Part shown: piece after piece, positions 16,171 to 33,375 of the stretch | Layout of the letters: each line of letters starts with the position of its first letter | Numbering within the stretch: position 1 is the stretch's first letter | Assembly (NCBI RefSeq): GCF_018736065.1 | Contig: NZ_CP076128.1 | Location: 186,001-250,000 of the forward strand | Source of the DNA: Flammeovirga kamogawensis | GTDB lineage: Bacteria; Bacteroidota; Bacteroidia; Cytophagales; Flammeovirgaceae | DNA: 64,000 bases | Direction of reading: 5' to 3' | Notes under the pieces: generated by a model | Database searches by the model: none | What the model saw: the letters and a program-made list of their open reading frames with translations, nothing else | What the model was told of the DNA's origin: nothing | Program-made: the position numbers and the translations under genes

Positions 16171-19100
16171 ATGATCTATACTTTTTTGAATACTATATAT
16201 AAACTTAATTTTTTGCAAAGCTTATTGTATGGCGTTATCGCCTTTTTCTTTGTTTCGATGTTTACATTGAACGAAGCTAAAGCTGATACTAATTTTAAAG
16301 GCGAGGTTGCATATTTTAAGATAGAAAATGATACCGCTCAAAGTAGACAAGCGGCTAGGCAATTGGCAAAAACTCTACGCTTGTTAAATTCAAGTGCAAA
16401 AAATGAGTTGTTAACTAATTATGCGGACGCATTGCATGCATTCTCTGATTCTGTGCTGTTCAGAGGTGATCGAGATTTACAGCAAATCCGAGTTGATATG
16501 GCTGATCCCGAAATTGTCGAAAGAATGAATCAGCTGAACACAGCTTTAAAATCTGATGACCCTACAGAATGGGAAAAGGCAAAAGATTCTGGTGTTTTTG
16601 ATGATATGGATGATATCATGATGGATTATAGTGATTTTGACCTGCCTTCTGAAGATGTTATAGAAACTTTAGATATGTGGAAGACTGGAGAAGATATCTC
16701 AGCTCCTGTCGATCAGTTTGATTCTCCAGTGAAATATACTTCAGATTGGTCTAATTTTGAGATGAGGACTCAAACAATGTACATGAAGGAAAATGCAGAA
16801 GTGGAATTTGGGGAACAAACCTTAAAAGCTGGAGATATACAAATGAATTTTGTAACAAAAATTGTCAAAGCACAAGGTATAGAAGATTCTACAGGTACTG
16901 TTGTTGAGAAACCAATTTTTAAAGATGGACAGTCTACATTCAATGCGAATGAGATGATCTATAATTATGAAACAGGAAAAGGTTTAATAAAAGGTATTGT
17001 AACAGAAGAAAGTGATGGTATTATTACTTCACAGGTTGTAAAGAAAACAGCGGGTCCAGAAATGTATATGGGCGATAATGTTTATACAACATGTAGATTA
17101 GAGCATCCTCATTTTGGGTTTAGAACCAAAAAATTAAAGGTAGTTCCAGAAAAAAATATTGTATCAGGTCCATTTTTAGTAGAATTAAACGAATCACCTT
17201 TACCCTTAGGCTTCTTTTTTGGAATATTTCCCGCAACTACTGATAACACTTCTGGTTTTATTATGCCTTCTTATGGAGAATCAACAGATCGTGGATTTTA
17301 TTTAAGAGATGGTGGTGTGTTTTTAGCACTAACAGATTACTTTAACTTAACTGTTTTAGGTTCTGCATATACACTAGGTGGTTGGGGTTTAAATATTTCA
17401 TCTCAATACCGTAAAAGATATGCTTTCAGTGGTAATACAAGGGTCTCTTTTGTAAATAACTTGTTTCAAGAAAATGATGGTTCTTTAACAGTAAGACAGG
17501 ATTACCAAATACAATGGTCACACTCACAGGAAAGTAAAAAGAACTCTAGGTTCTCTGCAAACATAAATATTGCAAACTCTGACTATAATAGAAATAACTC
17601 TCAGGATGCGAATGATTATCTACAATCATCTATGAACTCATCTGTTAGTTATAGTAATTCTTTTAATTTAGGTAACGTAAATTTGAATACAACTGCTCAA
17701 ACACGATACCAACAAAACGTGCAAACTGGCGAAGCAACTTTAACTCCAGAAGCCAGTTTAAACATGCAAAGAGTTAGACCTTTTCAAAACTTGTTTAAAA
17801 AATCAAATTTAATTTCAGAAATTGGATTAACATATAGTGTGAAAGCTAATGGATCGGTAACCAATAAACCAGGTTCAGGTAAATTACCATTTAATGTATA
17901 TGGAGCAGATAATTCTACAGATGATGGTATAGACCCGGAGACTGGAAAATATCCTGATTTATTGACAAATTTTGGTGAATATCAAGATGATTTTAGATGG
18001 GGTGTTACTCATGATATTCCAATTAGTACACAAATGAAAGTGTTAAAGTATTTTACATTTTCTCCAAGTTTTAACTATAAAGAATATTGGCATCCAGTAA
18101 GTTATGATTATACTTATCTGGAATCAGAAAATGCAGTTAAAGTAGATACGACTAACTCAATGACTCGTTATTCTGAATACAGTACTGCTATTGGTTTTAA
18201 TACTAACATGTTTATGTTTTATAACATGAAAGGTGGTTCAATTATTCGTCATACTATTCAACCTTCTGCCTCTATGAGTTTTAGACCAGATTTTGGTGAT
18301 CCTAATTATGATTATTATCAAATGGTACAAACATCTGCTACTAACCCTCAAGGAACAAATGTATTTAGGTCTGAAGGTGGTTTAGTTGGTAAACCATCTG
18401 CAGGAAGAAGTAGTGCTTTGAGTTTTTCTGTAAATAACGTTTTAGAATTGAAAAGCGGTAAAAAAGGTGAGGATGGCAAAGCAAAGAAAACCATGCTTCT
18501 TAATAACCTAAATGTCAGTTCGGGATATGATTTTGAGAGAGATTCTTTAAACTGGTCAGATATTTCTGCTGGTTTTAGAACTACACTATTAAAGAAAGTA
18601 GATGTTTCTGTTAGCTCTAGATGGGATCCATACCGTTATGTTGTTACAGATACTAAATATGATGAAACTTTAAAGAAAGAGGTTGTAACAAGTCAATATA
18701 AATCACAATATACATTAAGTGAAACTGGAGGCGGTTTAGCTAATTTAAGTAACATGACCGTTTCATTAGGTACAAGGTTAGCACCGAAAGGAGCAAAAGA
18801 AAAGAAAGAAAAGAAACTTAATGAGCTAGAACCACGTAATGAGTTAGAGAGACAAATGTTAGAAGAAATGAGGAGAAATCCTGATTTGTATATGGACTTT
18901 GATATTCCTTGGTCACTTTCAATAAATTATAACTTAAATTATAATAAAACAGGTGAACAAGAGTCTACAGTTACTCAAACGCTTACTTTTTCTGGAGACC
19001 TTTCTTTAACGCCAAAATGGAAATTTGCTTTTAGATCGGGTTATGATTTTAAAGAATCTGCGTTTTCTTATACATCATTTGACATTACAAGAGATTTACA

Positions 19101-19245
19101 CTGTTGGCAGTTAACTGCAAACTGGATTCCTTTTGGTCCTCGTCAATCATATAATATTACCATTGCGGTTAAAGCAGCTATGTTGCAAGACCTTAAATGG
19201 GAGAGACGTAACTCTTGGATTGACAGAAACGATAGATTTGAATAA
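16171..19245 (+). CDS. lptD: LPS-assembly outer-membrane protein LptD (OstA family)
   Basis: A 1024-residue outer-membrane protein. A signal peptide (residues 13-38) is followed by an N-terminal region of about 150 residues rich in Asp and Glu, then the OstA/LptA-like periplasmic beta-jellyroll (about 190-330: MYMKENAEVEFGEQTLKAGDIQ, with ITSQVVKK and PEMYMGDNVYTTC). The C-terminal two-thirds is a beta-barrel with alternating polar/aromatic strands. A lone cysteine sits in the ...TTCRLEHPHFGF... segment. LptD forms the pore that inserts LPS in the outer leaflet. The acidic insert before OstA is not in E. coli LptD. A good promoter lies just upstream. Confidence 0.85.
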   Translation: MIYTFLNTIYKLNFLQSLLYGVIAFFFVSMFTLNEAKADTNFKGEVAYFKIENDTAQSRQAARQLAKTLRLLNSSAKNELLTNYADALHAFSDSVLFRGDRDLQQIRVDMADPEIVERMNQLNTALKSDDPTEWEKAKDSGVFDDMDDIMMDYSDFDLPSEDVIETLDMWKTGEDISAPVDQFDSPVKYTSDWSNFEMRTQTMYMKENAEVEFGEQTLKAGDIQMNFVTKIVKAQGIEDSTGTVVEKPIFKDGQSTFNANEMIYNYETGKGLIKGIVTEESDGIITSQVVKKTAGPEMYMGDNVYTTCRLEHPHFGFRTKKLKVVPEKNIVSGPFLVELNESPLPLGFFFGIFPATTDNTSGFIMPSYGESTDRGFYLRDGGVFLALTDYFNLTVLGSAYTLGGWGLNISSQYRKRYAFSGNTRVSFVNNLFQENDGSLTVRQDYQIQWSHSQESKKNSRFSANINIANSDYNRNNSQDANDYLQSSMNSSVSYSNSFNLGNVNLNTTAQTRYQQNVQTGEATLTPEASLNMQRVRPFQNLFKKSNLISEIGLTYSVKANGSVTNKPGSGKLPFNVYGADNSTDDGIDPETGKYPDLLTNFGEYQDDFRWGVTHDIPISTQMKVLKYFTFSPSFNYKEYWHPVSYDYTYLESENAVKVDTTNSMTRYSEYSTAIGFNTNMFMFYNMKGGSIIRHTIQPSASMSFRPDFGDPNYDYYQMVQTSATNPQGTNVFRSEGGLVGKPSAGRSSALSFSVNNVLELKSGKKGEDGKAKKTMLLNNLNVSSGYDFERDSLNWSDISAGFRTTLLKKVDVSVSSRWDPYRYVVTDTKYDETLKKEVVTSQYKSQYTLSETGGGLANLSNMTVSLGTRLAPKGAKEKKEKKLNELEPRNELERQMLEEMRRNPDLYMDFDIPWSLSINYNLNYNKTGEQESTVTQTLTFSGDLSLTPKWKFAFRSGYDFKESAFSYTSFDITRDLHCWQLTANWIPFGPRQSYNITIAVKAAMLQDLKWERRNSWIDRNDRFE

Positions 19246-19257
19246 ACAATATACCTA

Positions 19258-19776
19258 ATGCCTTTTTATCACGATAAGCAAAAAAGTTACCCTCAAGAAA
19301 CAGAGTCAAGAGTTATTATCCGCTTTCAGGATTGTGACCCTTTTCGTCACTTAAATAATGCAAAATATTTTGACTACTTCTTTAATGCTAGAGAAGATAG
19401 AGTGCCACAGTTATATGGGTATAATATTGCAGATATTTTTAAAGAATATGGTACTGGTTGGGTAATATATAACCATCAGATATCCTATTTAAGACCAGCA
19501 GCCGTAGGAGAGTGGGTTCGCATTAAATCAAGTATTATTCATGTAGATGCCAATACAATTGTAGTGGAATATTACATGTTAGATGATGCCAAAAAAGAAT
19601 TGAAAACTGTATTATGGTCTACGATGAAATACATTAACCCTAAAAATGGGAAAAGTACAGATCATCAACCAGAAGTTTTTGATTATCTTGATACGATAAA
19701 AAATAAAGAGGTTAATTTTGCTGAAACAAGCTTTGATGACCGAATTAAAGCAATAAAAGAGAAGAGACATTCCTAA
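19258..19776 (+). CDS. Acyl-CoA thioesterase, 4HBT hotdog family
   Basis: A 172-residue hotdog-fold thioesterase. The signature RFQDCDPFRHLNNAKYFDYFFNAREDR is the 4-hydroxybenzoyl-CoA thioesterase motif (catalytic Asp in DPFRHLNN). The gene starts 12 bp after the lptD stop and so is likely cotranscribed. FadM, YbgC and similar enzymes of this family release free acids from acyl-CoA; the substrate here is not known. A terminator overlaps its last codons. Confidence 0.8.
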   Translation: MPFYHDKQKSYPQETESRVIIRFQDCDPFRHLNNAKYFDYFFNAREDRVPQLYGYNIADIFKEYGTGWVIYNHQISYLRPAAVGEWVRIKSSIIHVDANTIVVEYYMLDDAKKELKTVLWSTMKYINPKNGKSTDHQPEVFDYLDTIKNKEVNFAETSFDDRIKAIKEKRHS

Positions 19777-19795
19777 CAGGGTGTCTCTTTTTTTA
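19763..19795 (+). terminator. Terminator of the lptD-thioesterase unit
   Basis: A 7-bp stem (AGAGACA 19763-19769 with TGTCTCT 19782-19788) with a 12-nt loop, followed by TTTTTTT. It begins inside the final codons of the thioesterase gene and overlaps the stop of the convergent kinase gene. Confidence 0.7.
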
Positions 19796-22201
19796 TAGAT
19801 TAGGTATGGAAACAATAAATGTACTTCCATTACCTTTACTACTTATACATTCAATTGTTCCTTCCATTTCAGTAATGTATTTTTTTACAATTGATAAACC
19901 AAGACCCGTCGATTTCTCTCCAGCAGTTGGTTTTGCAGATAGTTTTTGATATTTCTTAAAAAGATTCTTTTTGTCATCATCACTAAAACCCGGTCCTTGA
20001 TCTGAGACTTTAATTTGTATAAAATCTTTATTTTTTTCCACAGAAGTAGAGATAATTGTATTCTGATCAGAAAACTTGATTGCATTCGAAATTAAGTTTT
20101 CTATAATTTGTGTGAAATGTTGTTTATTTACTTCTACTAAACCATCAGAAATCATATTATAAATTAATGTAATATTCTTTCTCTCTGCAATTCCAGTAAA
20201 TTCATTTACGATAACGTCAACAACATCAGAAGAAGAAAAAATATCTTTCATAGCTTTTTCTTTCTCCTCTTCCACTTTATTTTCAGTAACACGGGCGTCA
20301 AGAATTTCTTCTATCATGTTATTCATTCTATACATTGCATTTAAAGAACCACTAATGCACATTTTCTCATCATCGTCTAAAGCAGAATTGTTAGTGTCTA
20401 ACATACTTAGTAGAGATATTGAACTAGAAAGTGGATTCCTAAGATCATGGGCTACAATACCTAATAAATGGTTCTTTTCATTGTTAGCATTTTCAAGATC
20501 ATGATTTTTTTCTTCAATAAGTTCTTTCTGTTCTAAAATATGGTTGTTAGCCTTTTGTAATTTCTTTGATTTAGAGTTTAAATTAGAATAAGTACTAGAA
20601 TTTTGTAATGCTATACGAATATAGATAGCTAAGTTTCTTAATAAATTGAGTTTATAGCTATCAAAAGCATTTATATCAAAAGATTGAACTGTAAATACAC
20701 CAATTGGTTTTTTATGTTTTGCAACTAGTGGAATATAAATAATGGATTCAGCATTTTGTCCTGCAATAGGCTGTAAAACTTCTTTTACATAGTTCCTATG
20801 GTCGTTACTAAAATGTTGAATGAAGAACTCTTTTCGCTGATCAAAAGCCATTACAGCTAACCTCATTTTATCATTTAAATCATACGATTGCCCCTTTATC
20901 TCGATATCATTTTCGTAAATAAAAGGAAATTCAAGGGTGTTTGCTTTTTCATTAAAAATACCGATTCCGAAAATTGGTGTATCAATTAACTTATTAATAC
21001 TTTTATAAGCTGTTGTAATAATATCTTCTAAAGTAAGTTTTGCAGTAACATCTCTTCCAATTCCACTTAAAAGTTCAAGATCTTTGTATGCTTTTTTTAG
21101 AGATTTTGATTGTAAATCAATTTCCTGGTTTTGATGTTCTAACTGTTGGTTAGACCTTTTAACAAGGTTATTAAAATGAAATAAAGCAACTACCAGTAAT
21201 AATGTAAGGGATAGACTAACAACAAGAATATTTCTAATTGTGTTTTGTTGCGATATCTCTAATTCTTTTTGAGTAAGCCTTAAAAGCCTAATTTCTGATT
21301 CAATATTTAGTAAGCCAATTTCTCTTTGCTGGGTTTTTAGGGTGTCAATCATTTCAGAATTTCTATTCGAAATATCCCAAATAAGATCTGTTACTTTATC
21401 TCCTAAGTATTTTCGGATTAATGTATTAATGTAAGGCTTAAATTCTTTCGTTTTAAAAAATGCAGATAACGGAGTTTTCCAGCTAGAGTTTTTAGGTAAA
21501 ATAATTGCTAAACCATCATTTTCAGTCTGATAAAAAATTTGTCTATGTAGCATCAATCCTTTTGATAAGGCATATGCATAATTAGATAATTGAGTAAAAC
21601 CCCATAAATCTTGTCCATTTGCTATTTCAGAAATTAAATCCTCAGATGTATCTAGATATTTATATTCTAAAGCAGGAAGGTCCGCATGTTTTAACTTTAT
21701 AATATTTCGCTCAAAAGTAGAATTTTTGATTGTTACAGCTCGTAATGATTGAATAGCTGCATTGAAATTTTCTTTAGTTTGAAAAATTGGGACATTTGCT
21801 GATGAAATTATAATTTCTATGTCAGGCATATATGCGGGTAAATAATCAATATCCTTTTTGCGGTCGTCTGTTATTGTAATTCCTGATATACCAAAAATAC
21901 CTTCTCCGCCATCAGAAATTTTTTTGTACATATTGTCCCAACTCGAAACAGGTACCCATTTAATATTGATAATAGCTTTTAGTTCTTTCCTCTTTTGATG
22001 AATCATCTCAGCAAACATTTCATACTCAATACCTGCCATTCCACCAGTATGTAAAGAGTAGACAAATGGTTTATTCTGAATATAATAAACAGTAACAGTT
22101 CCTTTTTTATTTTCCCTTATTTTCTCCCATGAGTCTTGAGCATGTAAGCTCTGAGAAGCAATACAAAACAAGAGGAATAATATATATATATGGCGTTTCA
22201 T
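19793..22201 (-). CDS. Sensor histidine kinase with periplasmic solute-binding (SBP_bac_3) and GAF domains
   Basis: An 802-residue hybrid-architecture kinase. A signal peptide (about 1-21) is followed by a type 3 solute-binding domain (about 35-270; GGMAGIEYEMFAEM, GIFGISGITIT), a short coiled stretch, one membrane span (about 325-345, ILVVSLSLTLLLVVALF), a coiled coil, a GAF domain (about 370-520), and a HisKA domain with AHDLRNPLSS (phospho-acceptor H585), then HATPase_c (N box NLISNAIKF, DQGPGFS, STGLGLSIVKKY). The C-terminal end is the ATPase domain; there is no receiver domain. A small extracellular amino-acid- or oxoacid-like ligand is likely sensed. It is not paired with an adjacent response regulator. 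Confidence 0.85.
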   Translation of the reverse strand: MKRHIYILFLLFCIASQSLHAQDSWEKIRENKKGTVTVYYIQNKPFVYSLHTGGMAGIEYEMFAEMIHQKRKELKAIINIKWVPVSSWDNMYKKISDGGEGIFGISGITITDDRKKDIDYLPAYMPDIEIIISSANVPIFQTKENFNAAIQSLRAVTIKNSTFERNIIKLKHADLPALEYKYLDTSEDLISEIANGQDLWGFTQLSNYAYALSKGLMLHRQIFYQTENDGLAIILPKNSSWKTPLSAFFKTKEFKPYINTLIRKYLGDKVTDLIWDISNRNSEMIDTLKTQQREIGLLNIESEIRLLRLTQKELEISQQNTIRNILVVSLSLTLLLVVALFHFNNLVKRSNQQLEHQNQEIDLQSKSLKKAYKDLELLSGIGRDVTAKLTLEDIITTAYKSINKLIDTPIFGIGIFNEKANTLEFPFIYENDIEIKGQSYDLNDKMRLAVMAFDQRKEFFIQHFSNDHRNYVKEVLQPIAGQNAESIIYIPLVAKHKKPIGVFTVQSFDINAFDSYKLNLLRNLAIYIRIALQNSSTYSNLNSKSKKLQKANNHILEQKELIEEKNHDLENANNEKNHLLGIVAHDLRNPLSSSISLLSMLDTNNSALDDDEKMCISGSLNAMYRMNNMIEEILDARVTENKVEEEKEKAMKDIFSSSDVVDVIVNEFTGIAERKNITLIYNMISDGLVEVNKQHFTQIIENLISNAIKFSDQNTIISTSVEKNKDFIQIKVSDQGPGFSDDDKKNLFKKYQKLSAKPTAGEKSTGLGLSIVKKYITEMEGTIECISSKGNGSTFIVSIPNL

Positions 22202-22369
22202 TCTTTTTCATGTTGGAATTCCCTCAAAAATATTCAAATCATTTAGAAAAAACATATTTAAGTGTATAACTTTCATTTAATCAATAAAAATAATAGTCTA
22301 CGGCGTGTTATTTGAATATATTGAGAAATGATATAAATATAATGGTTAATAAGATCGTTAAAACTGCAT

Positions 22370-22377
22370 TATATTTG
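22370..22377 (+). promoter_or_regulatory. Probable -7 box upstream of the HupE-like gene
   Basis: TATATTTG matches TAnnTTTG exactly. It lies 90 bp upstream of the HupE-like ATG, leaving an untranslated leader of roughly 80 bases. No clear -33 TTG at the proper distance was seen. Confidence 0.45.
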
Positions 22378-22466
22378 CAAAGTGTAAACTAAGTCAGATT
22401 ATTTTTCTTTTAGGAGTATGTATGCTGGCAAAAAAATAAACGAATTACATTAAACTACTTAAAAGC

Positions 22467-23066
22467 ATGTCCTCATTTTGGGTGTATTTAGAAATTGGCT
22501 TACAACATATAACAGATGTTCAAGGTTATGACCATATATTGTTCATATTGGCACTTATGGCAACTTTTAGCTATAAGAATTTTAAACAAGTTGTTTGGTT
22601 AGTCACAGCTTTTACATTAGGACATACAATTACCCTTGGTTTATCAACTTTAGATATTATAACTATAAACCCGGATCTTGTAGAAAAATTAATTCCAGTA
22701 ACAATTTTATTGGTTTGTGTATCAAACTTTTTTGGTGTTAGTAAACTTACAACTGGAAACAGGCCTTCATATATCAAGAACACAAAAACATATAAAAAAT
22801 ATTATGTCGAAGCTGTTTTATTTGGTCTGATACACGGTTTAGGCTTCTCTAATTATCTTAAAGCATTATTAGGGTCAGAAAGTTCTATTTGGGAACCACT
22901 TTTAGCTTTTAACTTGGGTTTAGAAGTTGGTCAAATATTAATTGTAAGTATCTGTCTTTTAATAAATAACTTTATAATGAAGTTTACTTTATTGAACCAA
23001 AGAGATTGGAACTTCTTTTTAACAGGAGGAGCTTTTGTTTCAGCAGTAATTATTTTAGTGAATTAA
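22467..23066 (+). CDS. HupE/UreJ-family membrane protein
   Basis: A 199-residue polytopic protein with about six hydrophobic spans. It shows the family's N-terminal GLQHITDVQGYDHILFILAL, the TAFTLGHTITLGLS segment, the GLIHGLGFS motif and FNLGLEVGQ. Histidines in these motifs suggest nickel or other metal coordination. HupE/UreJ proteins are proposed nickel transporters for hydrogenase or urease, yet neither enzyme is in this window, so the metal and role are unclear. Bacteroidota frequently carry this orphan form. It is separated by 4 bp from the next gene. Confidence 0.82.
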   Translation: MSSFWVYLEIGLQHITDVQGYDHILFILALMATFSYKNFKQVVWLVTAFTLGHTITLGLSTLDIITINPDLVEKLIPVTILLVCVSNFFGVSKLTTGNRPSYIKNTKTYKKYYVEAVLFGLIHGLGFSNYLKALLGSESSIWEPLLAFNLGLEVGQILIVSICLLINNFIMKFTLLNQRDWNFFLTGGAFVSAVIILVN

Positions 23067-23070
23067 TACA

Positions 23071-23550
23071 ATGCAAAAAAATAGAAATTCTAAAGCCATC
23101 GTATGTAAGCCAAAAGTACCTGCTTTTGTAGCATTAGGTGTATTCTTATTTATTCTGTTATTAATAACTGTTGGTACAGTAAGATGGATTGAAATAGGTG
23201 GCTTTGAATGGTATAAATTATTGTTTTTAGTGAGCTTGGCTTTCATTTTAGTAATGATGATCGTCCGATTAATGTTTGCTTATAAAGTAGTTAGTTTTAA
23301 AACCAAGACCATAACTCAAGATTACCCTTTAAGAATTGGAGCAAAAGTAACAATTGATTTGTCTCAATATTTACTCTTTTGGGAGGTAAGACAACGCAAA
23401 ATAGGAAAGAAATTATTTAATATATTAACGATATATACTAAAACTGGTCAGCCGATACTTATTTCTAATAGAGATATGACATACTATCAAGAGGCTGTTA
23501 AATTTATGGAGACTAAGTTTCCCAAATTTCATAGATCTAAGGTGAAATAA
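23071..23550 (+). CDS. Membrane protein of unknown function (two spans plus soluble C-terminal half)
   Basis: A 159-residue protein with two hydrophobic segments at about 17-38 and 48-70, close together (an N-terminal hairpin), and a basic cytoplasmic C-terminal half (about 75-159) with alternating hydrophobic strands (KVTIDLSQYLLFWEVRQRK, LFNILTIYTKTGQPILI). That half resembles small PH-like bacterial membrane domains, but I cannot assign it to a family. It begins 4 bp after the HupE-like gene and is probably cotranscribed and functionally linked with it. Confidence 0.65.
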   Translation: MQKNRNSKAIVCKPKVPAFVALGVFLFILLLITVGTVRWIEIGGFEWYKLLFLVSLAFILVMMIVRLMFAYKVVSFKTKTITQDYPLRIGAKVTIDLSQYLLFWEVRQRKIGKKLFNILTIYTKTGQPILISNRDMTYYQEAVKFMETKFPKFHRSKVK

Positions 23551-23607
23551 TAAAGTATTTATCATCTTAAATGATTAAATTACAGTAGTCTGTAAAGTTC
23601 TATTGTA

Positions 23608-25278
23608 ATGCTTAACCCAAAAACTCAAAAAAATTATCTCCTTAAAATTTTTATTATTGGCTGTACAGCTTTATTAATAGGCTTAATTTTCACGCCTTTA
23701 ATTTGGCTGAAGTTACTGTTAATAGGGGTGATAATAGTATTAAGCATAAGATTGTATTTTAGGATTGTAAAAAGATCTGAGCAAGAACGATTAGGGGCGA
23801 TATACGCACATCAAGTAATAGATTTGGTATATCAGATTGTTGTTGTTCTCGATAAAGAATTTACTGTTTTAGATGTTCATTACCCAAATCATTTAAAAGA
23901 AAATCAAAAGCTGATTCAAGTAGGAGATACAATAGAAATCAGTAAGCATCATCCGTTACCATCAGAGTTTAGAACTCTTTTTAAAAAGGGAGTTTTTAGA
24001 AATAAAAGTCATTTTGATTATTTTCTAAATGGATACTTCTTCGAACTAAAAGTTGTTCAAAATTTTCAAGGGAACATTATTTGTCTTTTAAATGATTCTA
24101 CAAAAGCAAAAAAAGAAGAAGAAAAACTATCTAAGTTAAATGTTGATTTAGAAAACTTGCTAACTATTAACAATAGCGAACTAGCGCTTAAAAGAGAAAA
24201 ATTTAAAACAATCTTTGATAAATCATCTGACGCCTATTTTTTATTAGATGAAGGACTGAAGATTTCAATTTATAACGAAAAAGTAGAACAGCTTTTTGGG
24301 CGTTGTGATACCGTATTATTCTATAAGTGGATTGAGAAAAATTCGCCTTCCAATCAACCCAAAGGTGGCGATTCTTTATCTCTTTTTAAGAGCATGAAAG
24401 AAACATGTGACTTACAAGAGGAATTACGTTTTGAATGGTTATTTAAAAGTAAATCAAATGAAGATTTTCCATCTGAAGTTAGTTTAACACGCCTATCAAT
24501 TTCAGATCATATTTTATATTTTATGATCATAAGAAATATGGTAGGACAAAAGAAAATAGAATCAGAATTAAGAAAAAACCTAGAACGGGAGAAAGAGTTG
24601 AATGAAATGCGGTCAAAATTTATTTCGATGGCTTCTCACGAATTTAAAACACCTCTTGCTACAATTCTTACTAATCTTGATTTGATGGAACTAACCTTGA
24701 ATAAAGAGAATCTTCTAGAAGTAGACAGAATGAATAGGTTTATGGATAGAATGCGTTCTGAATCTACTCGTTTAACAATTTTAATGGATGAAGTACTTCA
24801 GTTAGGTAAGATTGAAGCAGGAAAAACCCCTTTTAAACCTATAAAAGTAAATACTTTACTTTTCATTAGTGATTATGTAAGTGAATTTAAAAGAAGATCA
24901 TCTACAGAAAGACAAATAGATATAACTTTTGATTTAAAAGAGAAAGAAGTTTGGTTAGATGTAAACTTAATGGAGCATGTTTTAGATAACTTATTAACTA
25001 ACGCAATTAAATACTCAGAAAAAGAGGTTGGAATTTTCGTTTCTACTTCAGGTGAAGGCTTATTAATAGAGGTTGTTGACAAAGGAATTGGTATTCCGCT
25101 TTCAGAATTTTCTCAGCTTTTTGATTCGTTTTTTAGAGGAAGTAACACCAATCATATTCAAGGAACAGGTCTTGGTTTAGTAATCGCCAAAGAATTTGTA
25201 GAACTTCATAATGGAATAATTGTTTGTGAAACAGAAGAGAATAAAGGAACTACTTTTAAAGTTGTAATACCATTTTAA
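23608..25278 (+). CDS. PAS-containing sensor histidine kinase
   Basis: A 556-residue kinase. Two adjacent hydrophobic spans (about 10-28 and 30-50) leave almost nothing outside, so it is probably a cytoplasmic or membrane-state sensor. A coiled region and one or two PAS-like domains follow (about 70-150, and 200-320 with SSDAYFLLDEGLKISIYNEKVEQLFG). The kinase core has SHEFKTPLATIL (phospho-acceptor H344), the N box LDNLLTNAIKYSEK, DKGIGIP and GTGLGLVIAKEFVELHNG. It has no neighbouring response-regulator gene, so it must act on a distant or shared one. Confidence 0.85.
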   Translation: MLNPKTQKNYLLKIFIIGCTALLIGLIFTPLIWLKLLLIGVIIVLSIRLYFRIVKRSEQERLGAIYAHQVIDLVYQIVVVLDKEFTVLDVHYPNHLKENQKLIQVGDTIEISKHHPLPSEFRTLFKKGVFRNKSHFDYFLNGYFFELKVVQNFQGNIICLLNDSTKAKKEEEKLSKLNVDLENLLTINNSELALKREKFKTIFDKSSDAYFLLDEGLKISIYNEKVEQLFGRCDTVLFYKWIEKNSPSNQPKGGDSLSLFKSMKETCDLQEELRFEWLFKSKSNEDFPSEVSLTRLSISDHILYFMIIRNMVGQKKIESELRKNLEREKELNEMRSKFISMASHEFKTPLATILTNLDLMELTLNKENLLEVDRMNRFMDRMRSESTRLTILMDEVLQLGKIEAGKTPFKPIKVNTLLFISDYVSEFKRRSSTERQIDITFDLKEKEVWLDVNLMEHVLDNLLTNAIKYSEKEVGIFVSTSGEGLLIEVVDKGIGIPLSEFSQLFDSFFRGSNTNHIQGTGLGLVIAKEFVELHNGIIVCETEENKGTTFKVVIPF

Positions 25279-25387
25279 AGTAAGGTGAAAAGTATTCTTC
25301 TTTTAAATCTTACAAATAGTATATATAAACTCCTTATGTTTTAACTTGACTATTAAGATTGGTTAGAATTTAAAAAGTTCCTATTAA

Positions 25388-26740
25388 ATGACAAAATCCA
25401 AAACTCCAGACTTAGGTCTAGATAGTATTAAAGATTTACTTGTAAAATTATCAGTACCTGCTGCTGTTGGTATGATGGTAATAGTTATTTACCAAATGGT
25501 AGATACCTTTTTTATAGGTAGATGGGTTGGTACATTAGGTATAGCAGGTATTTCTGTTGTAGCACCTTTAGTAATGCTAGTGCAATCTATTGGAATGGCA
25601 ATAGGCATGGGAGGAGCATCTTTAATTGCGAGAGCACTTGGTGGTGGGAACCCTAGGCATGCTTGTAAAGTTTTAGGAACGCAGAGTACAATTACATTAA
25701 TTTTAAGTTTATTAGCAGTAGTATTGGGTGTTCTTTTTGAAGAAAAATTATTACTTTTTTTTGGAGCAAATGGAGAAATTTATAGCTATGCCCAAGAGTA
25801 TTATCATATAGTTATTTTTGGAATGCCTTTTTTAACGATGTCTATTATGAGTAATAATGGCATCCGATCTGAAGGAAAGGCGAAAACAGCAATGATGTCA
25901 ATGATAATTCCAGGTGTTATTAATATCATTTTAGACCCAATCTTTATTGTTGGGTTCGATATGGGAATGCAGGGAGCGGCGTGGGCAACACTTATTTCTT
26001 ATATATTAGGCTTTTTATATATACTACATTACTACCTATTTAGAAAAACAGTTTTAAAATTACGATGGCAAGATTTTATTCTTGATAGTAGAATAGTTAA
26101 AGAAACATTGGCTTTAGGTTCTGCTTCATTTGTTCGTCAAGGAGCTTCTAGTGGGATTGCCATAATATTAAACCATATTTTATTTGATAATGGAGGAGAA
26201 TTAAGTGTAGCTGTTTATGGAGTGATAAGTCGCTTATTTATGCTTGCAACATTTCCTATGATTGGTTTAGGGCAGGGTTTTCTAACTATTTGTAGCTTTA
26301 ACTACGGAGCATGTAATTATAGAAGAGTAAAAGAAGTAATCTATAAATCTATTTTGTATGGTTCGGTTATCAATACGATAATAGTAATATTAGTTTTTAT
26401 TTTTAATAAAGAACTTACAGGACTATTTACAAAAGATGTAGAGCTAATAACAGAAAGTGTACCTGCAATATTTGGTGTCATGACAAGTTTACCATTTATA
26501 TCAATTGGTATTATTTCTAGTATGTATGCACAAGCTGTAGGTAAGGCAAAAGATGCTTTATTATTAACTTTAAATAGACAAGTTATCTTTAGAATTCCAT
26601 TTGTATTTCTTTTTTCACATATTTGGGGGATTTATGGAACATGGGGTTCTTTTTTTGTAGCAGATATATTCTCACTTATTGTTGCAGCGATCTACATGAA
26701 AAAGAAAATAAATCGAATAAATAATTATCTAACACAATAA
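25388..26740 (+). CDS. MATE-family multidrug efflux transporter
   Basis: A 450-residue polytopic protein with twelve predicted membrane spans. It has typical MATE features: LSVPAAVGMMVIVIYQMVDTFFIGRWVGT in the first helices, and IPGVINIILDPIFIVGF at the end of the first bundle. MATE pumps are Na+/H+-coupled exporters of organic cations and toxins. It begins 109 bp after the kinase gene. The following membrane gene starts 20 bp after its stop, which suggests cotranscription. Its substrate cannot be told from sequence. Confidence 0.87.
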   Translation: MTKSKTPDLGLDSIKDLLVKLSVPAAVGMMVIVIYQMVDTFFIGRWVGTLGIAGISVVAPLVMLVQSIGMAIGMGGASLIARALGGGNPRHACKVLGTQSTITLILSLLAVVLGVLFEEKLLLFFGANGEIYSYAQEYYHIVIFGMPFLTMSIMSNNGIRSEGKAKTAMMSMIIPGVINIILDPIFIVGFDMGMQGAAWATLISYILGFLYILHYYLFRKTVLKLRWQDFILDSRIVKETLALGSASFVRQGASSGIAIILNHILFDNGGELSVAVYGVISRLFMLATFPMIGLGQGFLTICSFNYGACNYRRVKEVIYKSILYGSVINTIIVILVFIFNKELTGLFTKDVELITESVPAIFGVMTSLPFISIGIISSMYAQAVGKAKDALLLTLNRQVIFRIPFVFLFSHIWGIYGTWGSFFVADIFSLIVAAIYMKKKINRINNYLTQ

Positions 26741-26760
26741 CCTTTTCAACTAAGAATTTG

Positions 26761-27672
26761 ATGAGTAATATTAAAGAAGTTGTTATACATGAAGTAAAAA
26801 AGACACTATTAGTCACTTTATATTTTGCAGTAGGTTTTAATCTTTTAGTACTGTTAGTAGGGTTACTGGTAGATTCTGTAGAGTTAAAAGTAGGGTATTT
26901 TGGAGCCGCTACTTTTTCTGCAGCGTTAACAGGTAAGGTTGTAGTTTTACTAGAGACAGTGGGTATAGACTTAAAATTAAAAAGAACTAAACTGATTAAT
27001 GTTGTAATCCTAAAAGCAGTTTTGTTTACAGTGGTTATTTTCTTAGCAATTGTAATAGAAGATATTTTAAAAGGAATGATTGCCGATGATTTAACTTTTA
27101 GTGAAGCACTTCATCATGTGATTGCCTCTTTTAATAGTCATTTCTTTTTAGCAAGATGTATTTATATGTTTATGCTTTTTGCTTTATACCACTTTATTTT
27201 TGAAGTAGATAAATTTTTGGGTACAACAGAATTATTTGATATGGTATTTTCTAGATTTTTTAATCAGAAAGACCGTGAGTATATTATGTTGTCTTTAAGA
27301 TGGAATTTTCAATCTGACTCACTTGAGGATCATATTAAGATTACTCAAGAATTTACACACAAAATTAATCAAGTATTACCTAAGTATAAAGGTACAATTT
27401 CATCTTATGAAATAGATGGTATTATGTGTTTGTGGGAAAACTCCGACTCTAAGGATTTTATGACTAAAGCAAAAGAGTTTTTTAAAGAAACACAGAAATT
27501 GGATGGGAAATATGGTGTAGTAAATATTAGAGGAGCTATAAAAAAAGGAATTATTTCTGAAGCTGAAGTTGGTGGTTTTCTTAAAAAAGAAATTCTTAGA
27601 ATCAGTCCTATTTTAGTTGAAGTTAATGCTGCGTCTAAATTAGAAAGTGGTTTACCTTTAAAAGAGTTATAA
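26761..27672 (+). CDS. Membrane protein with a degenerate class III nucleotide-cyclase-like domain
   Basis: The ATG at 26761 is preferred over an in-frame TTG one codon upstream. The 303-residue product has four hydrophobic spans (about 16-37, 42-60, 78-100, 125-150). Its C-terminal part (about 180-300) aligns by eye with Bacteroidota adenylate/guanylate cyclases: YEIDGIMCLW stands where those have the metal-binding GDE of YVGDEVVLTW-like strands, and RGAIKKGIISEAEVGGFLKKEI stands where they have RAGLHxGxVxVGEVGxxKxDI. The metal-binding aspartate pattern is only partly kept, so it is probably a pseudocyclase. It follows a MATE pump gene by 20 bp. I name no function; a regulatory or ligand-sensing role is likely. 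Confidence 0.6.
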   Translation: MSNIKEVVIHEVKKTLLVTLYFAVGFNLLVLLVGLLVDSVELKVGYFGAATFSAALTGKVVVLLETVGIDLKLKRTKLINVVILKAVLFTVVIFLAIVIEDILKGMIADDLTFSEALHHVIASFNSHFFLARCIYMFMLFALYHFIFEVDKFLGTTELFDMVFSRFFNQKDREYIMLSLRWNFQSDSLEDHIKITQEFTHKINQVLPKYKGTISSYEIDGIMCLWENSDSKDFMTKAKEFFKETQKLDGKYGVVNIRGAIKKGIISEAEVGGFLKKEILRISPILVEVNAASKLESGLPLKEL

Positions 27673-27686
27673 ATTCTTACTAGTTT

Positions 27687-27746
27687 AATCACTAAATCAA
27701 AAAGCCCAATTGAAATTTTTCAATTGGGCTTTTTGATTTAGTGATT
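27687..27746. terminator. Two-way terminator, 29-bp perfect inverted repeat
   Basis: Bases 27687-27715 are exactly complementary, inverted, to 27718-27746, with only TT between. A GC-rich AGCCCAATTG core is flanked by A/T runs, so it works as a terminator in both directions. It overlaps the last three codons of the convergent CDF gene. Confidence 0.92.
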
Positions 27747-28649
27747 GCAATCCTCATGACAATCTTCATCTTCTCTTTCAATTTCAATTGTAATATGTTT
27801 TACATCGTCTTTATCTATTATTTCTCTTACTTTCTTTTTTATTTCAGCAGCTCTTTCGATTGTAACTTTTTGAGCCACTACTAAATGTAAACTCATTATA
27901 TTAAATTCTCCATCTAATGACCAAATGTGGAGGTCATGAGTATCTACTACGTCGGGAATTTTTATTAATTCATTAATGATTTTTTCTTGATCGACTCCAG
28001 TAGGAGCAGCCTGAAGAAAAATTGGCATAATTGCGATTAAATTTTTAATGGCATTATATAGAATAAAGGTGGCAATACATAACGATAATATTGGATCAAT
28101 AATAGGTAGGTCCCAAAACACCATAACTCCAGCTCCAATTAATACAGCAATCCATCCTAAAGTGTCTTCTAACATATGGAGCATCATTACTCTTTGATTT
28201 GCCGAATTTTTATTGCTCATGAGTTTAAATACAGCAGCTCCATTTACAATTACTCCTAATATGCCCATATAGACCATTCCTTGAGCGTCTACTGCTTCTG
28301 GTGTAATTAGCCTAGGAATAGTTTTTACTATCATTAAAATGGATCCTGTTGTTAAAACAACTATGTTGATCATTGCAGCTAAAGTAGAATAACGTCTATA
28401 ACCATAGGTGTAAAAATTATTCTCTTTCTTATTGGAATATTTTTCAAAAAAATAGCCAACTCCAATTGCTACGGTGTCGCCGAGGTCGTGAACTGCATCA
28501 GCCATTATTGCAACAGAATTTGTAAATGCTCCGCCTATAAATTCAATAATGGTAAAAAATAAATTTAAAAAGAAAGCCCATCCAATATTATCAGTTGAAT
28601 GGTTATGTTGACCGTGAGAATGTCCGTGATGATGATGTTGATGTGCCAT
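27738..28649 (-). CDS. CDF-family zinc/cation exporter (CzcD/ZitB type)
   Basis: A 303-residue cation-diffusion-facilitator protein. The N-terminal His-rich segment (MAHQHHHHGHSHGQHNHS) and a C-terminal HEDCNH tail bind metal. Six spans follow, with the family motif in the second (SVAIMADAVHDLGDTVAIG; HxxxD metal site) and the matching HMLEDTLGW in the fifth. The cytoplasmic C-terminal domain has DVVDTHDLHIWSLDGE. Such pumps export Zn2+ or other divalent cations by proton antiport. It converges on the pseudocyclase gene and shares a two-way terminator whose right arm encodes its final residues. Confidence 0.88.
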   Translation of the reverse strand: MAHQHHHHGHSHGQHNHSTDNIGWAFFLNLFFTIIEFIGGAFTNSVAIMADAVHDLGDTVAIGVGYFFEKYSNKKENNFYTYGYRRYSTLAAMINIVVLTTGSILMIVKTIPRLITPEAVDAQGMVYMGILGVIVNGAAVFKLMSNKNSANQRVMMLHMLEDTLGWIAVLIGAGVMVFWDLPIIDPILSLCIATFILYNAIKNLIAIMPIFLQAAPTGVDQEKIINELIKIPDVVDTHDLHIWSLDGEFNIMSLHLVVAQKVTIERAAEIKKKVREIIDKDDVKHITIEIEREDEDCHEDCNH

Positions 28650-29005
28650 ATATCCTTACTATATTTTTCTTTCAATTTACAATTAATTATGAGAATAGTA
28701 AATCAATAATTGCGTATATATAATTTCGTTTAACGATTCGCGAATTTTCGCCACTTGTGTGTTTACGCTACAGGTGAATTTTCTTTGTGTAAATAGTGAT
28801 AAGGTGTGAAAAATACAATTTTAAAATCAATCTTTTTTTGATTTTTTTTAGTAATAAAATTCAAATAAACAGCTGTTTTAGTGTATGTTAGGTGGTTTTT
28901 TATTAGATCATTTTATTTTAGTGATGATCATCACTGAAATAGAATTTTACTACTTCCATATTTGTATCACACAAAGAGAAAACATCTCATAAAAATTTCA
29001 ATTAT
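28650..29005. other. 356-bp control region between the CDF gene and focA
   Basis: Divergent promoters must lie here. It holds the CRP/FNR-like palindrome described separately, a 10-bp palindrome ATTCGCGAAT at 28736-28745 that could be an operator for the metal exporter, and a weak CATATTTG box at 28957-28964 that could be the focA -7 element. I saw no small gene. Confidence 0.5.
28920..28935. promoter_or_regulatory. CRP/FNR-type palindrome upstream of focA
   Basis: AGTGATGATCATCACT is a perfect 16-nt palindrome. Its core GTGA-N6-TCAC matches CRP-family sites, and its TGAT-N4-ATCA resembles FNR half-sites. The centre is 78 bp before the focA ATG. If CATATTTG at 28957-28964 is the -7 box, the site centres near -43, where class II CRP/FNR activators bind. 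A redox- or oxygen-responsive regulator of focA-pflB is inferred. Confidence 0.6.
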
Positions 29006-29848
29006 ATGGGTTATTCATCACCAAAAGATATTTTAGGTAACATCAGAAATGGTGCTTTACAAAAAGGAAATATGTCTGTCCAACAATTATTGGTTTTCGG
29101 ATTCTTAGGAGGAGCTTATGTAGCTTTTGGCTTTTTATTAGCCATTGTAGTTGGAGGTGGAATGCCTGGGATAGGAGCAGAAAATCCTGGAATACCAAAA
29201 TTTATGATGGGTGCAGTATTTCCTGTAGGACTTATCTTATGTATAATAGCGGGAGCTGAACTTTTTACATCGAGTACTGCAATGATGACAGTATCAGTCT
29301 TTTCAAAAGACCAGTCGATTAAAAAGCTTGGTAAAGTTTGGACATTTGGGTACTTGGGTAATTTTGTAGGCTCATTATTCGTTGCATATTTTATTACAAC
29401 ATTAACAGGAGTAGTTGATGGAGAAGTTTTCCATAACTCTTTAATTAGTGTTGCAGAACATAAAGTAGGTAACCCATTCTACAAAACATTCTTTAAAGCT
29501 GTAGGTGCAAACTGGCTTGTTTGTTTAGCAGCTTGGCAAGCTTACGCCGCTAAAGATGTTATGGGAAAAGTGATAGGAATTTGGTTTCCTGTAATGACCT
29601 TTGTGACTTTTGGATTTGAACACTGTATTGCAAATATGTATGTAATTCCTGCAGCAATTTTTAATGGAGCTGCAATTACTTGGTCAGATTTTATCTTCAC
29701 AAACTTGATTCCAGCAACAATAGGAAATATTGTAGGGGGGGCATTCTTTGTAGGTACAATATACTGGTGGATGTTTGTGAAACCAGAGCAAGAAAAAGAA
29801 AAAAAACAGTTAGATAAAGAGCTTGAGTCTATTAACATTAATAGCTAA
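29006..29848 (+). CDS. focA: Formate channel FocA, formate/nitrite transporter family
   Basis: A 280-residue FNT-family membrane protein with six predicted spans. Recognisable features are GGAYVAFGFLLAIVVG, the AGAELFTSSTA segment, ANWLVCLAAW, and GFEHCIANMY, where the His corresponds to the conserved pore histidine of E. coli FocA. FNT proteins are pentameric channels for formate. The gene lies directly upstream of pflB with a 98-bp gap and no terminator, so the two are likely cotranscribed; this allows formate to leave the cell as it is made. A CRP/FNR-like palindrome is upstream. Confidence 0.9.
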   Translation: MGYSSPKDILGNIRNGALQKGNMSVQQLLVFGFLGGAYVAFGFLLAIVVGGGMPGIGAENPGIPKFMMGAVFPVGLILCIIAGAELFTSSTAMMTVSVFSKDQSIKKLGKVWTFGYLGNFVGSLFVAYFITTLTGVVDGEVFHNSLISVAEHKVGNPFYKTFFKAVGANWLVCLAAWQAYAAKDVMGKVIGIWFPVMTFVTFGFEHCIANMYVIPAAIFNGAAITWSDFIFTNLIPATIGNIVGGAFFVGTIYWWMFVKPEQEKEKKQLDKELESININS

Positions 29849-29946
29849 AATTTTTAACAACTGTTTTATTAATAAGATTTAATTACAGCATCTAAATGTG
29901 AAAATAAGCCGTTAATGATGTTGTAGATTGTAAAGAAAAACTAAAA

Positions 29947-32223
29947 ATGAAGACAATGGAAAACGCTGTATTAGACTCTCAGTTAAAAGGAACGAAATGG
30001 CAAAACGAAATTGATGTTTACGATTTTGTTGTTAATAATGTTACTCCTTATTACGGTGATAAAACTTTCTTAGAAGGTGCTACAGAAGCAACTAAAAAAC
30101 TTTGGGATATCTGTTTAGCAGGTATGAAAGAAGAACGTGAAAACGATGGTTGCCGTGACATCGATACCGATACAATTTCTACAGTAACTAGCCATAAAGC
30201 TGGTTATATTAATAAAGAATTAGAATCAATTGTTGGTTTACAAACTGACGAACTTCTTAAGCGTGCTATGAAACCTTTTGGTGGTTATAGAGTAGTTAAA
30301 AATGCTGTAGAAGAAAAAGGTAAAACAGTTAACCCTAAAGTTGGTTATGTTTTCCAATATGCTAAAGATCACAACAACCAAGTGTTCTCTGCATACGATA
30401 AAGAAATTAGAACTTACCGTTCATTAGGTGTTTTAACTGGTCTTCCTGATAATTATGCGCGTGGTCGTGTAATTGGTGATTACCGTCGTTTAGCACTTTA
30501 TGGAACAGATAAATTAATAGCTGCAAAACAAGCAGATTTTAATGCAATTGAGGATGGTTTAATTACTGGTTCAGGAGCTGATATTGCGGAGCAAATTCAA
30601 CTTCGTGAAGAAATTACATCTCAAATTCAATCATTGAAAGACATCGCTGAGATGGCTGCAATGTATGATGTAGATGTTACAAAACCTTCAGTAACTGCTA
30701 AAGAAGCTGTTCAAGCTGTTTATTTTGCTTATTTAGCAGCCGTTAAAGAGCAAGATGGTGCTGCAATGTCATTAGGTAACGTTTCATCTTTCTTAGATAT
30801 TTATATCGAAAGAGATTTAGAAGCTGGTACTATTACAGAAGTTGAAGCTCAAGAGTATATTGACCACTTCGTAATGAAATTACGTATGGTACGTCACTTA
30901 CGTCCTGGTGCTTATGATGAAATCTTTGGTGGTGACCCAACTTGGGTAACAGAAGCAATTGGTGGTCAATTCCACGATGGTCGTACTAAAGTAACTAAAT
31001 CATCATTCAGATTCTTACAGACACTTTACAATTTAGGAGCATCTCCAGAGCCAAACTTAACAGTACTTTGGTCTAAAGATCTTCCTCAAGGGTTTAAAGA
31101 TTTCTGTTCTCAAGTATCAATTGATACATCTTCTATCCAATACGAAAATGACGATTTAATGCGTCCTAATCGTGGATCAGATGATTATGGTATTGCTTGT
31201 TGTGTATCTTACCAACATATTGGTAAGCGTATTCAATTCTTCGGTGCTCGTACAAACTTACCGAAAGCATTATTAATGGCAATCAACGCAGGACATGATG
31301 AGAACAAAAATGTTCTTACTGTTGAAGGTGTTGAAGCAATGGCTAACGATGAGTACTTGGATTACGACAAAGTAATGACGCAATTCAAGAAAACAATGAA
31401 AGAAGTTGCTCGTGTTTATGTGAAAACGATGAATATCATTCACTATATGCATGATAAGCATTATTACGAAAAAGCTCAATTCGCATTCTTGGATACTAAT
31501 CCTGGTATCGATATGGCTTATGGTGCTGCTGGTATTTCTATCATTGCCGATTCATTATCAGCAATTAAAAATGCAAAAGTAAAACCTATCCGTGATGAAA
31601 ATGGTTTAGCTGTTGATTTCCAAATTGAGGGTGATTTCCCTAAATATGGTAACGATATTGATGAAGTAGATAACATTGCAAAAGAAATTACGCATATCTT
31701 CTTCTCAGAATTAGCGAAACACAAAACATACCGTAACGCAGTACCTACAATGTCATTATTAACAATTACTTCAAACGTAATGTATGGTAAGAAAACAGGT
31801 GCTACACCTGACGGTCGTAAAGCTGGTGAGCCATTTGCTCCTGGTGCTAACCCAATGCACGGTCGTGATACAAACGGTGCTGTTGCTTCGTTAAACTCTG
31901 TTGCAAAACTAGATTATAGCGATGCTCAAGATGGTATCTCAAATACTTTCTCTATCGTTCCTAAATCTTTAGGTTCTGATCGTGAAACTCAAATTAAGAA
32001 CTTAGTAACAATGATGGATGGCTACTTTGCTGAAGAAGGCGGAATGGCACATCACTTGAACGTTAACGTTCTAAATAGAGATACTTTAATGGATGCTTAC
32101 AATCACCCTGAGAATTATCCTCAGTTAACAATCAGAGTTTCTGGTTACGCTGTAAACTTTATTAGATTGTCTAGAGCACATCAATTAGAAGTAATTCAAA
32201 GAACATTCCACGAGTCTATGTAA
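29947..32223 (+). CDS. pflB: Pyruvate formate-lyase (formate C-acetyltransferase)
   Basis: A 758-residue glycyl-radical enzyme that converts pyruvate and CoA to acetyl-CoA and formate under anoxia. The catalytic cysteine pair is at C418-C419 (IACCVSYQ), the same numbering as in E. coli, and the glycyl-radical motif is RVSGYAVNF with G733. It appears intact. Arginine is mostly CGT here, unlike the AGA-rich neighbours, a sign of strong expression. An alternative start is the ATG three codons in. No activating-enzyme gene (pflA) lies adjacent, which is unusual. A strong hairpin follows the stop. Confidence 0.95.
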
Positions 32224-32260
32224 TTCGTAGTTCTGGAATAGAATTTAAATATTAATAAGA

Positions 32261-32292
32261 AAGGTTACTTCTAAATGGAGTAACCTTTTTTT
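32261..32292 (+). terminator. pflB terminator
   Basis: A 9-bp stem (AAGGTTACT 32261-32269 with AGTAACCTT 32279-32287) with a 9-nt loop, followed by a run of T. It ends the focA-pflB transcript 37 bp after the stop. Confidence 0.85.
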
Positions 32293-32427
32293 AATAGATG
32301 TAACTAATTTTATTAATTTTCGCTTTAACCATTGCTATCGATTTATGAAAATTATATGCACTAAGCATTTAACTTTCAGACTATGAACTAATTTTAATAA
32401 CTCTTTCAATCTTATAATTCTTTAGAA

Positions 32428-33375
32428 ATGAATACACGAAATCTACCAATTGGGTTAGGTGGCGTTGCCTTGGGTACACTAACATTAGGTATAGCATGGA
32501 ACAATATGGATTATTACTTAATCTATTATTTAACAATAGCTATTTCTATAGCGTTTTTTGGAGTGCTAATTGTTCGAAATATTTTTCACTTTGATTTGAT
32601 CATTAATGAGTTAAAACATCCTATATTAGGCAGTTTTGTACCTACATTTTCAATGGTAATGATGGTTTTATCGGGTATTTTAGTAAAACAGTTTTCATCA
32701 TTTGGAAAAATATTATGGCTTTCTGCTATTATTATCCACCTTTTGATTTTAGTAATATTCTCATTTTACCAATTAAAAGAATTTAAAATTTCTTCCCTAG
32801 TGCCTAGTTGGTTTATACCGCCCATTGGAATTGTCGTCGCCTGTGTGAATTCTACTAATATGGAATACCCTAACTTAGTTTCTTTAATCTGGTGGGTAGC
32901 AACACCTCTATATTTTCTAATTCTTTTATTACTGTTTTATCGATTGTCTTTTTATAAATTCGAAGCATTAGAAACGTTTGGTATTATGGCTGCTCCTGCT
33001 AGTTTATGTTTTGCAGGCTATTTAACAATAGAATCTCACCCTAATGATTTCATTTGTCATGTTTTACTAACTCTTGCCATATTTATGACGCTATTGCTAT
33101 ATATCTCTTTTTTTAAATTATTAAAGTACCAGTTTAACCCAAGTTTTGCGGCATATACTTTTCCTTTAGCAATTGGGGTAGTAGCCCTCCAAAAATATAG
33201 TTACTATTTAATTGAAAGTGGAGAGTTTGTTATGGGAGAAGTAATTAGAAGTATATCAAATATTGAATTAATAATTGCATCGGTATTAATTTTATACGTG
33301 ATATATAAGTATTTTTTTTATTGTATAGATGAACTATTCAAACCACAAACATTAGTGAATTTAAATAATAAATAG
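32428..33375 (+). CDS. TDT-family (TehA/SLAC1-like) anion channel or transporter
   Basis: A 315-residue protein with about ten hydrophobic spans in the pattern of the tellurite-resistance/dicarboxylate transporter family. Features are PIGLGGVALGTLTLGIAWN in the first helix, a central MAAPASLCFAGYL and PSFAAYTFPLAIGVVALQKY towards the end. Members include TehA and the plant SLAC1 anion channel; bacterial relatives move C4-dicarboxylates, sulfite or other anions. It lies after the pflB terminator, so it probably has its own promoter. Its place next to a formate-producing locus makes organic-acid or formate export a reasonable guess, not proven. Confidence 0.75.
   Translation: MNTRNLPIGLGGVALGTLTLGIAWNNMDYYLIYYLTIAISIAFFGVLIVRNIFHFDLIINELKHPILGSFVPTFSMVMMVLSGILVKQFSSFGKILWLSAIIIHLLILVIFSFYQLKEFKISSLVPSWFIPPIGIVVACVNSTNMEYPNLVSLIWWVATPLYFLILLLLFYRLSFYKFEALETFGIMAAPASLCFAGYLTIESHPNDFICHVLLTLAIFMTLLLYISFFKLLKYQFNPSFAAYTFPLAIGVVALQKYSYYLIESGEFVMGEVIRSISNIELIIASVLILYVIYKYFFYCIDELFKPQTLVNLNNK

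Follow-up and report, generated by a model that had tools for sequence, protein, structure and literature searches.

Mammalian C1/C2 and soluble guanylate cyclase alpha/beta retain a cyclase domain with a partial active site, which serves in structure or regulation. Mycobacterium Cya/Rv1625c has been put forward as a receptor-type membrane cyclase, and a receptor role of cyclase membrane domains is a published proposal and a question still debated (PMC9433096, PMC4821796). For Bacteroidetes, one report describes DUF2652 proteins as uncharacterised and cyclase-like (PMC4886424). In the literature searched, which lay mostly outside subscription journals, no paper was found on pseudo-cyclases, on inactive class III cyclases in Bacteroidetes or on a Flammeovirga adenylate cyclase, and for inactive bacterial cyclase homology domains a single optogenetics review was returned.

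The window analysed here (64,000 nt of Flammeovirga kamogawensis contig NZ_CP076128.1, positions 186,001–250,000) carries a gene for a 303-aa protein in which a four-helix membrane domain and a linker precede a degenerate class III nucleotide cyclase domain (Table 1). The open reading frame is as given in the preliminary description, with both motifs singled out there (YEIDGIMCLW and EVGGFLKKEI) present in the translation; the ORF program proposed a TTG start at 26758, versus the ATG at 26761. Four membrane spans had also been proposed and agree with four helices in the full-length predicted model (residues 2–36, 44–66, 77–108 and 127–153, followed by beta-alpha-beta-beta-alpha-beta), a poor model with a mean pLDDT of 56.4. 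Hydropathy alone gives peaks at 16–34 (overlapped by 26–44), 81–99 and 128–146, and no separate above-threshold peak for the second span (44–66).

Table 1 Features of the pseudo-cyclase locus, in window coordinates.
Feature	Position	Strand	Remarks
HupE/UreJ-type membrane protein	22467..23066	+	PF13795; conserved neighbour
159-aa protein, membrane-like by eye	23071..23550	+	No Pfam family over cut-off; conserved between HupE and histidine kinase, 9/9 genomes
Histidine kinase, PAS-like part	23608..25278	+	HATPase_c and HisKA above cut-off, PAS under it
MATE family exporter	25388..26740	+	PF01554, 171.5 bits (cut-off 24.9); TIGR00797; adjacent in 9/9 genomes
Membrane pseudo-cyclase gene	26761..27672	+	ATG 26761 to stop 27672, 303 aa
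Four-helix membrane domain, residues 1–153	26761..27219	+	Model helices; stand-alone 4TM profile scores
TM4 end and cytosolic linker, residues 143–166	27187..27258	+	20/24 positions invariant, 9 orthologues
Degenerate class III cyclase domain, residues 167–303	27259..27669	+	Final ~44 domain residues absent
Codon R180, invariant, at place of first metal-binding aspartate	27298..27300	+	
Codon D219, second metal-binding aspartate	27415..27417	+	Kept in 8/9
Codon R257, invariant, at place of base-binding lysine	27529..27531	+	
Long inverted repeat with U-tract	27686..27747	.	-41.7 kcal/mol, z -12.25 vs 200 shuffles

No Pfam or NCBIfam model matches the pseudo-cyclase ORF at E up to 1. The class III nucleotide cyclase profile (Guanylate_cyc, PF00211), on which the preliminary description had relied for a hit with the C-terminal part, gives no direct match at E up to 1 to that part, to the whole protein or to the three of the eight other orthologues that were scanned, and its gathering cut-off is not reached; the link to cyclases was therefore made through intact relatives. 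PDB sequences include no match to the ORF (profile A1 returned three, E 0.58–1.4, none of them a cyclase), PHROGs gave one row (E 0.25) and the PADLOC PycC profile matches weakly (E 0.0098 over 40 residues). The sole other match in the same genome (L002, E 0.33), an 835-aa protein, reads as unrelated. Ten weak matches were found outside the genus, in 7 of 49 genomes: eight are cyclase-motif proteins of 363–426 aa (161–239 query residues covered, 18–26% identity), of which the four scanned pass the PF00211 cut-off; the remaining two, L013 and L020, are short membrane proteins lacking a cyclase domain.

A profile built from these eight cyclases scores 48.6–60.6 bits on all nine full-length orthologues, and its C-terminal part 12.6–19.6 bits on the C-terminal halves of all nine, with a shuffle control of at most 7.1 bits (900 shuffles of three orthologues). 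Alignment by hhalign of the nine orthologues with 19 intact cyclases gives a probability of 98.5 (E 1.6e-15, 231 columns), and of the C-terminal part alone, from six sequences, 95.6 (E 1.3e-8). The C-part model, built from six sequences (mean pLDDT 70.3; core blocks 81–88, one at 69), has the strand order beta-alpha-beta-beta-alpha-beta. Class III cyclases fill the first 42 places of its Foldseek list in PDB (2w01_B at the top, E 6.6e-6), the first unrelated match, a beta-alanine synthase, standing at row 43. With VIA-align the best match is Mycobacterium Cya (7yzk_A; Z 11.1, rmsd 4.5, 125 residues aligned), which heads the list for both models, although others lie within 1 Z of it; the Z score is not specific by itself because designed ferredoxin folds reach 10.2 (79 residues) in the C-part list. 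A degenerate GGDEF domain was considered and rejected: in a separate match list the first GGDEF chain appears at row 30, behind 29 class III rows, and at the sequence level, too, it is class III cyclases that match. hhalign, the C-part model, Foldseek and VIA-align all identify the fold of a class III nucleotide cyclase catalytic domain, and the proposed cyclase likeness of the C-terminal half is borne out by the profile-profile match, the predicted fold and scores above shuffles. In a tree from which one cyclase (AC_L041) was left out, the nine pseudo-cyclases group in one clade (100/100); its branch is 3.05 changes per column long, and its place among the intact cyclases is not to be trusted.

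Catalytic positions were compared in an alignment of the nine orthologues with 30 other cyclases (27 of 43 cyclase-like proteins and three from A2; the remaining cyclase-like proteins, mostly of other architecture, were left out, and several of the rows used are near-copies). Both metal-binding aspartates are present in 30/30 of these other cyclases and all six catalytic residues in 28/30, and in alignment A5 (19 rows) five of the six are invariant. In all nine pseudo-cyclases the first metal aspartate is replaced by Arg (R180) and the base-binding lysine also by Arg (R257); the base aspartate is retained in two, the transition-state Asn in one and the transition-state Arg in one, never together, and the domain ends ~44 residues earlier at the C-terminus than in intact cyclases. 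None of the class III residue pairs (two metal aspartates, base Lys and Asp, transition-state Asn and Arg) is found complete. At the second metal site eight orthologues retain the aspartate (D219), and F. pacifica (L009) has Asn. The motifs had been called worn, with absence of the two metal aspartates as a proposed check; the first aspartate is indeed absent, but YEIDGIMCLW keeps the second in 8/9 orthologues.

The alignment register is backed by a remnant of the GDxxN motif in two orthologues (L009 and L010); it is surer at the first three catalytic sites than at the last three and weak past residue 281, and the low-confidence stretches of the two models (residues 266–289 and 267–285) overlap part of the lost active site. 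Replacement of the lysine by Arg is by itself a weak sign of loss, because two otherwise intact cyclases (L041 and L113) also have Arg here. Absence of the first metal aspartate from every orthologue weighs most. Profiles, model and alignment all support cyclase homology with catalytic residues missing, and to judge from those residues the enzyme part is very probably dead and makes no cyclic nucleotide.

Three other cyclases have features of their own. L051 (G008:C2:1826526), a membrane cyclase with base Asp changed to Glu and transition-state Arg to Lys, lies on a very long branch and is perhaps another cyclase on the way to a change of function. L113:994–2079 is the otherwise intact membrane cyclase with Arg at the base-lysine place and belongs to another family of the phylum. 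In L114 (G266:C1:2269700) the cyclase frame begins within the domain (159 aa from its ATG, catalytic motifs kept downstream); this gene is either truncated or frameshifted.

A search of 58 genomes revealed an orthologue in all nine Flammeovirga genomes, the source genome included (the other eight proteins 58–89% identical to that of the window; five named relatives carry the gene), and in 0/49 genomes outside the genus. Profile A1 found matches in five of 296 genomes of the phylum, again including the source genome; since the other four are three full cyclases, by eye, and the shortened frame L114, with motifs kept, no further member was seen. The frame is open in 9/9 genomes and there are no internal gaps across the orthologues. 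Whole-protein dN/dS is 0.014–0.077 in six of the eight pairs tried and undefined in two, with dS saturated or undefined in several pairs and >1.6 in four of the six that give a ratio; compared with that of its nearest relative (L003), the window gene has a ratio of 0.077 across the whole protein (membrane part 0.042, cyclase part 0.106). This purifying selection means that the gene is no dying pseudogene. Among the stretches compared, conservation is highest in the TM4 end plus linker and in residues 268–280 (10/13 invariant), whereas residues 167–303 overall have 36/137 invariant positions; the invariant fraction is 0.57 in the membrane part, 0.83 in the linker and 0.26 in the cyclase-like part, among nine genomes of which four are close kin (92–99% identical in either protein half). 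What selection preserves is the membrane module together with the linker and a single patch within the cyclase-like domain.

The membrane domain is homologous to stand-alone four-span (4TM) proteins, including the two short out-of-genus matches. A profile of the first 170 residues of the orthologues scores 35.2 and 32.1 bits on two such proteins of genome G011 (169–174 aa), against maxima of 13.8 for intact cyclases and 10.1 for 600 shuffles; in reverse, a stand-alone 4TM profile of four sequences, of which the Sinorhizobium one is by itself at shuffle level, scores 43.9–59.9 bits on the nine orthologues and at most 15.5 on intact cyclases. With L013 as query in 18 genomes, the pseudo-cyclases of 9/9 Flammeovirga were recovered (E 9.5e-8 to 3.5e-4), the other matches being L020, L013 itself and broken pieces in G016. 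The search of plasmids gave no match to the membrane part of the window protein and two to stand-alone 4TM proteins: a Gloeothece hypothetical protein (WP_013334530.1) held up as a further member (22.6 bits, against no more than 8.6 for shuffles), and a Sinorhizobium plasmid frame was rejected at 4.3 bits, the level of shuffles. These stand-alone proteins share the membrane domain (22.6–35.2 bits with the pseudo-cyclase profile) but have no cytosolic domain, whereas in the pseudo-cyclase 137 cytosolic residues follow the fourth span. The profile scores therefore indicate a module that also occurs alone and differs from those of intact membrane cyclases. An intact-cyclase membrane profile gives 19.8 bits on L020 and 3.5 on L013 (shuffles at most 6.6), and all these modules look distantly related. 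With the L020 query, run without a positive control, no stand-alone 4TM protein was found at E 1e-4 in 296 genomes of the phylum. L013, L020 and L119:1465–1950 represent an unnamed stand-alone 4TM kind in Bacteroidota and Cyanobacteria; Pfam has no family above cut-off in the two of these proteins scanned.

The MATE exporter reported directly upstream of the pseudo-cyclase is confirmed, with a gap of 20 nt. Order and strand of the HupE, 159-aa protein, histidine kinase, MATE and pseudo-cyclase genes are kept in 9/9 genomes (the window and eight other loci), and since this is a single five-gene block the MATE gene is no more linked to the pseudo-cyclase than are the kinase or HupE genes. The suggested co-occurrence with MATE was seen in the 9/9 Flammeovirga genomes only: MATE relatives in G010 and G011 (42 and 44% identity) are followed by no pseudo-cyclase-like gene within 1.4 kb, and no MATE gene was seen in the stretches read around the stand-alone 4TM genes of G011. 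The MATE link is thus conserved and seen only in this genus. Between the pseudo-cyclase and a convergent cation-efflux gene lies the inverted repeat of Table 1, a probable two-way terminator; it is not among the terminators listed by the scan, and Rfam finds nothing above gathering score in 19000–33000. Five of the nine genomes also have the cation-efflux, formate-transporter and formate-lyase genes downstream, in L102 separated from the pseudo-cyclase by a gap of ~2.2 kb. The other four have no match to them in the stretch examined (in L021 the contig ends ~3.9 kb after the gene), and because these four are near relatives the absence may reflect one event.

Two intact membrane cyclases of a related family are encoded on contig C2 of the same genome, and at least one intact relative is present in each of the nine Flammeovirga genomes. 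No Pycsar effector lies beside the pseudo-cyclase among the neighbours scanned (MATE, histidine kinase, HupE and cation efflux), and the one PF18967 match of the genome is on C2. There, an intact membrane cyclase gene shares one base at its start with the end of a PycTM (PF18967) gene (L106:4584–5756 and L106:5759–6946, both on the - strand). The PycTM gene scores 98.7 bits to PF18967, with an N-terminal part that is HD-like by eye and uncalled by Pfam. By coordinates, such a pair stands side by side in 9/9 Flammeovirga genomes and in G010, and this Pycsar-like cyclase-effector pair seems to belong to the core genome. G005:C112:34389–35707, where a second PycTM match (189-aa frame) adjoins a cyclase-profile match (332-aa frame, positions 8–120 only), is a possible further Pycsar locus.

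Retained by every sampled member of the genus, the protein has a cyclase domain without its active site and is therefore most likely a non-enzymatic partner or sensor, not a cyclase. Our preferred reading, with a probability of roughly 55%, is a membrane regulator or receptor, non-catalytic, that acts together with the kinase-MATE cluster. Such a protein would work as a dimer: the 4TM domain may sense a signal in or outside the membrane, or dock on a membrane partner, the linker would relay that signal, and the shortened cyclase-like domain would offer a surface for dimerisation or binding in place of enzyme activity. Sensing, dimerisation and the receptor role are all part of the proposal, as is the partner, the likeliest candidates being the MATE exporter and the histidine kinase of its own gene cluster. 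That the former membrane cyclase has become a non-enzymatic receptor gating the MATE exporter, or its kinase, by direct contact and without cyclic nucleotide is a considerably more tentative suggestion.

As the C-terminal part is the less conserved half, it may instead be a passive tail, inherited and serving only to fold and keep the protein in place, with the 4TM domain as the working part. The greater conservation of membrane part and linker (invariant fractions 0.57 and 0.83 vs 0.26), the stronger selection on the membrane part and the existence of stand-alone 4TM relatives in G011 and Gloeothece agree with this, but the cyclase-like part is itself under purifying selection (dN/dS 0.106, window vs L003) and retains the conserved patch at 268–280, and a mere tail seems unlikely. 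A little less likely again are mixed dimers, in which the pseudo-cyclase would lower or tune the activity of intact membrane cyclases in the same cell. Class III cyclases act as dimers with shared sites, so that a dead subunit can be dominant, and intact relatives are at hand in all nine genomes, two of them in this one. Their genes, however, lie on another contig, the missing ~44 C-terminal residues are part of the domain, and the membrane domain is of another subfamily (at most 15.5 vs 43.9–59.9 bits), which makes pairing through membrane and linker helices less likely.

An active cyclase with an unusual active site is very improbable: the second metal aspartate persists in 8/9 orthologues and Arg replaces the base lysine in the otherwise intact L041 and L113, but Arg stands at the first metal aspartate in 9/9, the transition-state Asn and Arg never occur together and the end of the domain is missing. 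Decay of a membrane cyclase into a functionless pseudogene, as lost catalytic residues and a lost domain end might suggest, is hardly credible given the open, gap-free frame in 9/9 genomes and the low dN/dS in 6/8 pairs.

The regulator or receptor preferred here is closest in architecture to the membrane class III cyclases of the same GTDB family and order (PF00211, mostly 340–430 aa), with the same membrane-linker-cyclase order and collinear over 231 columns. Unlike the pseudo-cyclase, these have both metal aspartates (30/30) and ~44 more C-terminal residues, and they are 16–20% identical to the window protein, versus 58–89% for the orthologues. DUF2652 proteins, set apart by description only, are reported as lacking membrane spans and conserving the metal aspartates (PMC4886424). 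Mixed or pseudo-heterodimeric cyclase structures appear among the VIA-align matches of the pseudo-cyclase models; in mammalian C1/C2 and soluble guanylate cyclase one site is shared with a partner, whereas here residues of both half-sites are gone. Mycobacterium Cya/Rv1625c shares the succession of membrane domain, linker and cyclase domain, but has six spans and is an active enzyme, against four spans and a presumably dead domain. With membrane domain and linker strongly selected and the enzyme lost, the pseudo-cyclase separates the two roles naturally, so that the function of the membrane part can be tested cleanly.
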